This document shows, in pieces, positions 5,916 to 7,936 of a stretch of DNA of 7,936 nt. The translations under genes were made by a program, and so were the position numbers. Source of the DNA: Eubacterium sp. (GTDB lineage Bacteria; Bacillota; Clostridia; Oscillospirales; Acutalibacteraceae); contig JAILGO010000046.1 of assembly GCA_024696725.1 (NCBI GenBank), positions 1 through 7,936 of the forward strand, in the 5' to 3' direction. Within the stretch, counting starts at the first letter, position 1. Every line of letters starts with the position of its first letter. Under the pieces are notes generated by a model, which searched no databases, had not been told where the DNA came from, and worked only from the letters and a program-made list of their open reading frames with translations.

Positions 5916-6470
5916 ATGAAAAAGTATTCGGGCGCTCTTCTGAGTCTTGTCTGCATCGTTTATACAGTATGGTATATGCACTTCGGCAAGCCGTGGACCA
6001 ACGCGGGAGCGCTTTCAACGATAGGCTTAAGACACAGGGCTCTTTTTACGGTGTGGGGACTTCTTACGCTGATTTCCCTTACAACTCAGATAATGACGGG
6101 ATATATAAGAATCGGACGGCTTAAGACAGGCGCGGCGCTTATGGGTACAGCGGCTGTAGGTATGGCGCTTACGCTGATATTCCGATTCGATTACGATATT
6201 AAACCCGACTATTATCTTCACTGTGCGGGCTCGCTTTTATTCTCGGCGGTAACCGGCGTTTCAGTCTTTCTTTTATTCGCGCTGAAAAAAGAAAAGACGC
6301 TTGCAGGTCTTACGGCGTTAATACTGACGGGCGATTTAATATGTTTATTGATATTTAAGGAAACGGGACTTATAGAAGCTCTGCCGATAATTGCGGGGCT
6401 GATAATGCTTACATACAGTAATTTAAGGAGAGATGGAATTGAAGCTTCACGAAAAGCTGAAATCGCTTAA
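5916..6470 (+). CDS. Polytopic membrane protein, unknown function
   Basis: The product is 184 residues and mostly hydrophobic, with about six membrane segments near 5-22, 39-61, 72-90, 101-122, 129-147 and 151-166, joined by short loops. Visible polar features are GLRHRALF near 37-44, the FDYDIKPDYYLHC stretch near 91-103 with His102 and Cys103 at the mouth of a helix, and a basic C-terminal tail. I do not recognise the family. The arrangement is loosely like small six-helix domain-of-unknown-function membrane proteins, but I cannot assign one. ATG 5916 follows AAGGTG by five bases. The last 38 bases overlap the start of the decarboxylase-family gene in another frame, so the two are probably translationally coupled and share the promoter at 5872-5900. 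Confidence 0.8.
   Translation: MKKYSGALLSLVCIVYTVWYMHFGKPWTNAGALSTIGLRHRALFTVWGLLTLISLTTQIMTGYIRIGRLKTGAALMGTAAVGMALTLIFRFDYDIKPDYYLHCAGSLLFSAVTGVSVFLLFALKKEKTLAGLTALILTGDLICLLIFKETGLIEALPIIAGLIMLTYSNLRRDGIEASRKAEIA
6425..6430 (+). promoter_or_regulatory. Ribosome binding site with two candidate starts
   Basis: AAGGAG lies inside the end of the preceding membrane protein gene. It is two bases from ATG 6433, which is unusually tight, and eight bases from the in-frame TTG 6439, which is the better spacing. TTG starts are used elsewhere in this window, so the true start may be TTG 6439, shortening the protein by two residues. Confidence 0.6.
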
Positions 6471-7749
6471 GCGATACCCTTTTCACATGCCCGGTCACAA
6501 ACGGAACCCGGAATTCGGCATTACGGGCAGCGAAATTGATATAACCGAGATTGAAGGCTTTGACAATCTTCACGACGCGAAAGGCGTTTTAGCCGAGCTT
6601 GAGGAAAGACTGAAAAAGCAGTATAAAAGCAAAAGAAGCTTTTTGCTCGTTAACGGCTCGACGGTCGGTATTCTCGCGGCAATCTTTTCGGTATGCGGCG
6701 AGGGTGATAAGATTATTATAGCGAAAAACTGTCATAAAAGCGTTTATAACGCGTGTATGCTGAGGCGTCTCAGAGTCGTATATCTTGAACCCGAATTCGA
6801 CAGCGTTAATATGTGTTACACAGGCATAATGCAGGACAGACTCGACGCACTTATTATGAGGCACGGCGACGCGAAGGCTGTCGTTATTACCTCGCCGACT
6901 TACGAGGGCAGGATAAGCAATATAAAGACCGATATACCTCTTATAATCGACGCGGCTCACGGCGCGCATCTCGGGCTCGGAGGCTTCCCTTCATACCCGG
7001 AAGGAAGCATCGTCGTTTCTTCGCTCCACAAAACACTTCCCGCACTTACGCAGACAGCGGTTCTTAACGTATACGACGAGAAATACGCAGCGCTAACGAA
7101 ACGGTATCTCGATATATTTCAGACGAGCTCTCCGAGCTATGTGCTTATGAATTCCGTATCCCTTTGCTGCGATATTTGCTTGAACAAAAAACTTTTTGAA
7201 GACTACTATGAAAGGCTCTGCGACTTCAGGCAGCTTGAGCTTTCAAAGCTTCGTCTTAAATACAGCGACGATATTTCAAAGCTCGTTATTTCCTCGGAAA
7301 ACACGGATTTATCGGGGGAAGAGCTTGCGAAGCTTCTCAGAGAAAAATATCTTATAGAGCCTGAAATGGCGAGCGTTAATTACGTCGTGCTGTTAACCTC
7401 TGTCGCCGACACGGACGAGGCTTTTGAGCTGCTTAAGACGGCGTTGCTTGAAATCGACGGATATGCCGCTTACCAACCGGAAACGACTAAGAAAAAGCCG
7501 CCCGTACAGGTCGGCGAAAGCATAATTGAATATCCCGGGTTATGTGAGGAGCGCCTTCTTTCAGAGGCTGTAGGCAGGCGTGCGGGCGAATTCGTTTTTG
7601 CTTATCCTCCGGACATACCGATAATCTCCCCTAACGAGATTATCACGGAGGAGGCGGTCAGCTACGTACGGCTTCTTAATGAATACGGCGTTAATACGGT
7701 ATCGGACAGCGGATTACTTCCTAATAAGATATTGACAAAAGCAGAGTAA
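6433..7749 (+). CDS. Orn/Lys/Arg decarboxylase-family PLP enzyme (YaaO/Bacillus-SpeA type)
   Basis: A 438-residue fold-type I PLP enzyme, related to the compact Bacillus SpeA/YaaO group rather than the long inducible E. coli CadA/AdiA enzymes. Family marks in order are YPFHMPGHKRN (15-25), ITEIEGFDNLHDAKG (37-51), LVNGSTVGIL (72-81) for phosphate binding, the NCHKSVYN segment (99-106), DAAHGAH (173-179) with Asp173 for the PLP ring nitrogen, and SSLHKTLPALTQT (196-208), where Lys200 should form the Schiff base. The C-terminal domain ends with FAYPPDIPIISPNE (388-401), also typical. Such enzymes decarboxylate arginine, lysine or ornithine to polyamine precursors; the substrate is not decidable here, and no other polyamine gene is visible. 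I give the longest start, ATG 6433; TTG 6439 is better spaced from AAGGAG. No terminator follows: the promoter of the next gene lies inside its 3' end. Confidence 0.9.
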   Translation: MELKLHEKLKSLKRYPFHMPGHKRNPEFGITGSEIDITEIEGFDNLHDAKGVLAELEERLKKQYKSKRSFLLVNGSTVGILAAIFSVCGEGDKIIIAKNCHKSVYNACMLRRLRVVYLEPEFDSVNMCYTGIMQDRLDALIMRHGDAKAVVITSPTYEGRISNIKTDIPLIIDAAHGAHLGLGGFPSYPEGSIVVSSLHKTLPALTQTAVLNVYDEKYAALTKRYLDIFQTSSPSYVLMNSVSLCCDICLNKKLFEDYYERLCDFRQLELSKLRLKYSDDISKLVISSENTDLSGEELAKLLREKYLIEPEMASVNYVVLLTSVADTDEAFELLKTALLEIDGYAAYQPETTKKKPPVQVGESIIEYPGLCEERLLSEAVGRRAGEFVFAYPPDIPIISPNEIITEEAVSYVRLLNEYGVNTVSDSGLLPNKILTKAE

Positions 7750-7760
7750 TTATTTATAAT
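7732..7760 (+). promoter_or_regulatory. Perfect-consensus SigA promoter of scfA
   Basis: TTGACA (7732-7737), exactly 17 bases, then TATAAT (7755-7760): both hexamers match the consensus fully. The -35 box is inside the last codons of the decarboxylase-family gene and the -10 is just past its stop. Transcription should begin near 7767, about 25 bases before the ATG at 7792. Confidence 0.9.
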
Positions 7761-7765: not shown

Positions 7766-7791
7766 AGAAATAAATTTTAAGAGGTGTTCTT

Positions 7792-7936
7792 ATGAAAAAG
7801 ATTAAAACTTTAAGCTCAAGAAATCTTTGCGAGTCTGCTAAAAAGGGCGGCTGCGGTGAGTGCCAAACCTCCTGCCAGTCAGCAAGCAAGACCTCTTGCT
7901 CGGTTGCTAACCAAAAATGCGAGCAGCTTAAGAAGT
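7792..7936 (+). CDS. scfA: SCIFF-type ranthipeptide precursor (six Cys in forty-five), partial at window end
   Basis: 48 codons are visible before the window ends. The N-terminus MKKIKTLSSRN matches the SCIFF leader style, and the core follows the family pattern: CESAKKGGCGECQTSC from residue 13, then QSASKTSCSVANQKCE at 29-44. Cysteines are at 13, 21, 24, 28, 36 and 43. SCIFF peptides are near-universal in Clostridia and are modified by a dedicated radical SAM enzyme (ScfB) that makes Cys-to-side-chain thioether bonds; that gene is normally immediately downstream and would lie outside this window. The usual family core has QSAC and SCTVANQ, but here position 32 is Ser (AGC, one base from TGC) and 37 is Ser (TCG, one base from a Thr ACG). 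ATG 7792 has GAGGTG five bases upstream and a perfect promoter. The length suggests that only a few codons are missing. Confidence 0.9.
   Translation, partial: MKKIKTLSSRNLCESAKKGGCGECQTSCQSASKTSCSVANQKCEQLKK

Follow-up and report, generated by a model that had tools for sequence, protein, structure and literature searches.

Serine at positions 32 and 37 of a SCIFF precursor in a clostridial branch that retains intact ScfB: a possible re-registered thioether

The contig JAILGO010000046.1 from Eubacterium sp. assembly GCA_024696725.1, analyzed here over its full 7,936 bases (hereafter called the window), stops within scfA, a gene for a SCIFF precursor peptide whose reading frame reaches the last bases of the contig without a stop codon. 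The encoded peptide carries serine at positions 32 and 37, which are the donor and acceptor positions of a thioether crosslink made by the partner radical SAM maturase in characterized members of the family. This Ser32/Ser37 core belongs to a branch of SCIFF systems with intact ScfB maturases, and it looks like a maintained variant rather than a relic. It is likely that the ScfB enzymes of this branch take their crosslink donor from another cysteine. We tentatively propose that they form a re-registered thioether, for which Cys36 joined to Thr34 would be the best candidate.

The scfA frame translates to MKKIKTLSSRNLCESAKKGGCGECQTSCQSASKTSCSVANQKCEQLKK, with residues 29-40 reading QSASKTSCSVAN (Table 1). 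Its product scores 74.0 bits against TIGR03973, the NCBIfam SCIFF model (six_Cys_in_45), for which the cut-off is 50. Thus, the peptide is indeed the SCIFF precursor that a first-pass annotation of this DNA had taken it to be. The same annotation had read residues 32 and 37 as serines, each one base away from the canonical codon, and this is also the case: AGC at codon 32 and TCG at codon 37 are a single base from TGC and ACG, respectively. The peptide has six cysteines in total if Cys13 is included, and the canonical set at positions 21, 24, 28, 32, 36, and 43 is incomplete because Cys32 is Ser. By the NCBI model the peptide is SCIFF, but it lies outside the Cys32 chemotype.

The best described SCIFF peptide, CteA, is reported to carry a Cys32-Thr37 crosslink when modified in vitro and a Cys32-Thr34 crosslink on co-expression in Escherichia coli (PMC8172795, PMC8326336), the latter being placed by these accounts at C-gamma of Thr34. 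Both published bonds need Cys32 and this residue is serine here; therefore, neither can form. The earlier claim that the characterized thioether is out of reach for this peptide is accordingly sound, as the donor that defines a thermocellin-type crosslink is absent from scfA.

We compared 461 distinct cores, drawn from 272 loci together with 315 proteins, writing core types as residues 32-34-36-37. These cores were gathered by similarity, and the counts that follow hold among the matches listed and are not prevalences. The types found are CTCT (256), CTCG (105), STCS (70), SVNT (9), STCA (4), and CVCT (4), along with the rarer VTSA (3), CTET (2), FTCT (1), STSS (1), and PVNT (1), and five rows are cut or gapped in this region. 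The paired change at residues 32 and 37, which the first-pass annotation had suspected of being meaningful, reflects a strict and family-wide coupling. All 367 cores with Cys32 have Thr or Gly at position 37, and all 74 cores with Ser32 and Cys36 have Ser or Ala there. Read from the other side, residue 32 is Ser in each of the 74 cores that combine Cys36 with Ser or Ala at position 37. Where Ser32 occurs without Cys36, residue 37 is Thr (SVNT, nine cores) or Ser (STSS, one core); Cys36 is likewise missing from the Ser-type record P0100. Four other cysteines are nearly invariant in the full set, namely C21 (458), C24 (458), C28 (459), and C43 (456).

Codon usage at position 32 suggests that this serine is not incidental. 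Among 65 STCS loci, codon 32 is AGC in 54, AGT in four, and TCA in seven, with six of the TCA loci coming from the genus of the window and the other being a named record. Because TCA codons occur beside AGY codons, serine has outlasted a switch between its codon families. Drift would be anticipated at a neutral position, and we therefore infer that Ser32 is probably held by selection. No compensating cysteine accompanies the loss of Cys32 at the two places considered. Cys13 is present in 22 of 69 distinct STCS cores but is commoner in CTCG cores, which keep Cys32 (75 of 104), and tail cysteines are found in 7 of 66 STCS loci versus 5 of 77 CTCG loci. Five-cysteine peptides make up 45 of the 69 distinct STCS cores.

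Several other core types are informative in their own right. The SVNT lineage (L090 of G067, together with P0247, P0254, and others) reads CQTASKVDNTVSNQKCE and lacks Cys32, Thr34, and Cys36, with ScfB intact in L090. In VTSA cores (L092, P0246, and P0298), Cys32 and Cys36 are missing as well. L089 (G033) and P0243 show the opposite pattern to the Ser type, in that they keep Cys32, Thr34, and Thr37 but carry Glu36. Natural cores also split the two published crosslinks, in that Thr37 is missing from the 105 CTCG cores and Thr34 from the four CVCT cores (L070, L083, L087, and others); therefore, neither acceptor is general. Furthermore, three genomes encode a tandem pair of SCIFF matches in a single reading frame whose length is 95 to 112 aa (G378:C84:13902-14156, G536:C161:6828-7082, and G693:C18:315514-315768), and these are possibly double-core precursors.

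The state of the partner maturase bears directly on what the Ser type might do. Another contig of the same assembly (C60, positions 200-328) carries a second SCIFF gene with an identical core, followed by an intact scfB gene for a protein of 464 aa, which is the single gene in the whole assembly to pass the ScfB cut-off. This ScfB scores 734.5 bits against TIGR03974 (cut-off 425) and has the CX3CX2C and SPASM cysteines. Its best solved match is CteB (5wgg), with 575.6 bits and residues 1-455 of 464 aligned. An ScfB of at least 330 aa was recovered from 241 of 271 loci, and none from the other 30. The Ser-type loci yielded one in 63 of 69 cases, and in the remaining six (L001, L037, L044, L061, L095, and L151) the available stretch ends first. 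The Cys-type loci without such an ScfB may include both cut stretches and real absences, and some of them, such as L087 and L199-L201, have more than 1 kb downstream.

All 63 Ser-type ScfB rows retain the twelve invariant cysteines, those of CX3CX2C and SPASM included, apart from five that fall beyond the missing end of the cut row L039. The median pairwise ratio of nonsynonymous to synonymous substitution rates (dN/dS) is 0.084 for the Ser type (15 pairs), 0.204 for CTCG (147 pairs), and 0.397 for CTCT (28 pairs), as calculated for pairs that share rows and are limited to a proportion of synonymous differences (pS) of 0.05-0.62. As judged from these sequence comparisons, ScfB in Ser-type loci is intact and under purifying selection. 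The first-pass annotation had offered altered chemistry or lost modification for the Ser type; loss appears less likely because ScfB is intact and conserved, and the new partner residues that we suggest below are put forward as candidates.

One residue of ScfB changes together with the core. Residue 352 ranked first in a scan over 151 ScfB enzymes and was selected on that basis. It is located near an Aux I cysteine and two residues after Cys350, the cysteine that opens the SPASM pattern. Val occupies this position in all 63 Ser-type loci (54 distinct sequences) and in only 6 of 173 Cys-type enzymes (5 of 69 CTCG and 1 of 104 CTCT), and Cys occupies it in all five enzymes of rarer core types. 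Ser-type genomes fetched later by pattern have Val352 in 13 of 13 cases, representing 12 new sequences and one (G187) that is identical to L132. Given the six Cys-type enzymes that also carry it, Val352 is not a strict marker of Ser32.

The Ser type is not the oddity of a single peptide that it had first seemed. Within the genus of the window, 71 of 80 genomes have SCIFF, with one copy in 69 and two in this assembly (G000) and in G345. Ser32 is present in all 34 of these 71 genomes that were typed (the window's own genome, 30 loci, and G021, G149, and G231), with Ser37 in 33 and Ala37 in one. When codon 32 is required to be AGY, this core turns up in 20 of 300 family-sample genomes, spread over 9 of 135 genera, and in 4 of 391 class-sample genomes, with the window's own genome included in both counts. 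These are lower bounds because the family and class searches covered AGY codons at position 32, one of the two serine codon families (AGY and TCN). SCIFF matches as such occur in 220 of the 300 family-sample and 322 of the 391 class-sample genomes, and the Ser type is a minority among them. It extends to a further family within the class (G722 and loci of Mogibacterium and Mobilibacterium), and the named isolates that carry it include Mobilibacterium timonense (L150). One genus, g76, is mixed, with a CTCG core in G076 (L081) and STCS cores in G187 and G261. The first-pass annotation had recognized that many functional homologs with Ser would tell against its reading; such homologs do exist in number, and selection suggests that they are functional. 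A literature search of titles and abstract openings returned no mention of a Ser32 SCIFF.

How might a maturase of this family act on a core that lacks its usual donor? In the model we tentatively favor, ScfB would still act on the Ser-type peptide, and Cys36 would replace the missing Cys32 at the open iron site of Aux I. From there, Cys36 would attack the retained acceptor Thr34 from the opposite side, giving a ring of equal span and reversed direction. Docking of Cys36 in this manner would also set the adjacent residue 37 against the Aux I loop that bears ScfB residue 352, which would explain why residues 32, 37, and 352 change jointly. This model draws on three reported features of related systems. 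Cluster Aux I of CteB is described as having an open site that binds the substrate Cys (PMC6231123, PMC8326336), the NxxcA thioether is described as having its donor, Cys23, downstream of its acceptor, Asn20 (PMC8326336), and the homologous maturase PapB is reported to tolerate altered spacing and orientation (PMC9413430). By analogy with these precedents, a Cys36-Thr34 bond seems reasonable to suggest.

The history of Ser32 was examined with two ScfB trees built without column 352, a quick one of 168 rows and one of 48 rows with bootstrap, and with a further tree of 126 rows. In the 168- and 48-row trees, Ser-type and CTCG enzymes form one clade as opposed to CTCT enzymes. The base of this clade lacks resolution, and several Ser-type rows sit there. 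The number of changes needed between Ser32 and Cys32 is four with 168 rows, three with 126 rows, and three with 48 rows. On the simplest, though unproven, reading of the rooted 48-row tree, Ser32 would have been gained once and Cys32 would have been regained twice, each time with Gly37. The enzyme of L148, a Ser/Ala row with Val352, has a long branch and is placed next to the CTCG clade.

A number of points weigh against our proposal. No sequence reveals which bond forms, or whether any does. Retention of Cys36 and Thr34 is not diagnostic because both are equally conserved in Cys-type cores, and the proposal leaves unexplained why position 32 should require Ser rather than Ala or Gly. The SVNT cores (nine distinct) and VTSA cores (three) lack both Cys32 and Cys36, with ScfB intact in L090 and L092 (one locus each). 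Therefore, Cys36 is not a general donor, and the family must allow for other donors or for the absence of a thioether. The evolutionary support is also limited. A single Ser-type clade is not rejected in the 48-row tree (p value of the approximately unbiased test, p-AU, 0.127), and repeated origins of Ser32 are thus not established. Val352 is confounded with descent, as it is retained in a clade of CTCG enzymes that nests next to Ser-type rows. Only three independent pairs lie on supported branches, of which two have Val with Ser32 and one has no difference, and a sign test on so few cannot reach significance. The covariation of Ser32 with ScfB residue 352 is limited by shared ancestry and few independent events. 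Lastly, an earlier study, as recounted in a review, found PapB to be strict regarding its Cys-X3-Asp spacing (PMC8172795), contrary to the tolerance cited above.

It is also conceivable that crosslinking was lost in the Ser type, that cysteines 21, 24, 28, and 43 act in a role such as metal binding, and that ScfB was kept as a binding or redox partner. The near invariance of these four cysteines (456-459 of 461 cores) fits this idea, as does the finding that residues 32, 34, 36, and 37 each vary somewhere while ScfB is intact in the loci examined. However, if catalysis had ceased, one would anticipate decay of the radical SAM and SPASM cysteines, yet they are retained and the Ser-type enzymes have the low dN/dS noted above. 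Moreover, the two regains of Cys32 within the branch, if the simplest tree reading holds, would need a working maturase. We consider such a loss unlikely.

About as doubtful, and the boldest of the alternatives, is the possibility that Ser32 itself is modified. ScfB might abstract a hydrogen at Ser32 and join this residue to Cys28 (a Cys-X3-Ser arrangement comparable to the Cys-X3-Asp of freyrasin) or to Cys36, or it might oxidize Ser32 to formylglycine. This would account for the retention of Ser specifically, rather than of any small residue, across the codon-family change. In addition, ScfB shows homology to two other maturases, PapB (264.8 bits with the NCBIfam model) and the sulfatase-maturating enzyme 4k37 (61.5 bits), and anaerobic sulfatase maturases are reported to use either Ser or Cys (PMC8326336). 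On the other hand, the PapB score falls below that family's cut-off of 340. The recognition motif of the sulfatase type is absent around Ser32, and an adduct formed by a thiol on C-beta of Ser would presumably be unstable.

Another remaining cysteine (28, 43, or 13) might instead donate the sulfur, either to Thr34 or to Ser37. Cys28 and Cys43 are nearly invariant and are present in the SVNT and VTSA cores that also lack Cys36, whereas the distribution of Cys13 described above gives no sign of compensation. Overall, we view this arrangement as improbable. An even less probable extension of Ser32 modification is that position 32 serves as a Cys/Ser switch, in which Cys-type ScfB makes a thioether and Val352 ScfB oxidizes or crosslinks Ser32. 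If true, SCIFF would hold natural serine-modifying synthases of the ranthipeptide type, comparable to the Cys and Ser types of sulfatase maturases. Finally, sequencing or assembly errors at both serines can be dismissed, because although the site is fewer than 60 bases from the contig end, 19 other family-sample genomes and several named records carry this core too, which also settles the concern about a base error raised in the first-pass annotation.

Table 1. Features at the 3' end of the window
Feature	Position	Strand	Basis or remark
Lysine/ornithine-decarboxylase-like gene	6433..7749		directly upstream of scfA
Predicted sigma-70-type promoter, TTGACA-17-TATAAT, 12/12	7732..7760	+	overlaps 3' end of upstream gene
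Likely ribosome-binding site, AGAGGTG	7780..7786	+	sequence; role from consensus only
scfA, SCIFF precursor	7792..7935	+	48 codons; 3' end cut by contig end; TIGR03973 match
Codons 21-28, Cys21-X2-Cys24-X3-Cys28, near invariant in SCIFF	7852..7875	+	461-core comparison
Codon 32, AGC, Ser replacing crosslink donor Cys32	7885..7887	+	sequence; core-type comparison
Codon 34, ACC, Thr34, retained; CteA acceptor reported on co-expression	7891..7893	+	sequence; PMC8172795, PMC8326336
Codon 36, TGC, Cys36, candidate new donor	7897..7899	+	sequence; role inferred
Codon 37, TCG, Ser replacing Thr37	7900..7902	+	sequence; coupled with residue 32
Codon 43, TGC, Cys43, near invariant	7918..7920	+	C43 in 456 of 461 distinct cores

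The scan for promoters upstream of scfA found one site, compared with a mean of 0.5 in dinucleotide shuffles (counting any site of at least 9/12). Among the 69 distinct stretches upstream of Ser-type genes, 53 contain a site matching 11/12 or 12/12 positions, versus 3 of 345 single-base shuffles, and a predicted near-consensus promoter is thus conserved ahead of Ser-type genes. The gene preceding scfA encodes a lysine/ornithine-decarboxylase-like protein of 438 aa that scores far under the family cut-offs. Contig C60 starts with the tail of a decarboxylase-like gene, the same kind of gene as at the end of the window (contig C188), and the two sequences differ. We suspect that these contig ends represent one locus from two related organisms, possibly binned together, rather than a duplication.

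SCIFF peptides are widespread in Clostridia, as the class sample indicates, and published accounts disagree on their crosslink. A natural branch that is unable to form either published bond, and whose enzyme is intact and covaries with the core, offers a direct way to test which residues ScfB needs. Indeed, the natural cores amount to a mutant set, with Gly37 cores lacking Thr37, Val34 cores lacking Thr34, and Ser32 cores lacking the donor.

The closest characterized systems are CteA/CteB (thermocellin, from Clostridium thermocellum) and Tte1186a/Tte1186, which belong to the same families, TIGR03973 for the precursor and TIGR03974 for the maturase, as named in reviews. Both are described as using Cys32 as donor and Thr37 as acceptor in vitro (for CteA also Thr34, on co-expression), whereas residues 32 and 37 are both Ser in the Ser type. 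The position of residue 352 is Ser in CteB and Val in Ser-type ScfB. The CTCG-type SCIFF systems of Oscillibacter, Lachnospiraceae, and others have the closest ScfB relatives of the Ser type and likewise lack Thr37, but they keep Cys32 and have Gly37. In the freyrasin system PapA/PapB, a homologous SPASM maturase is reported to make thioethers from Cys to side chains, but with Asp or Glu as the acceptor. The anaerobic sulfatase-maturating enzyme (4k37) is not known to have a leader-binding domain. It is a homologous SPASM enzyme described as acting on Ser or Cys, and it differs from ScfB in that its product is formylglycine within a sulfatase.
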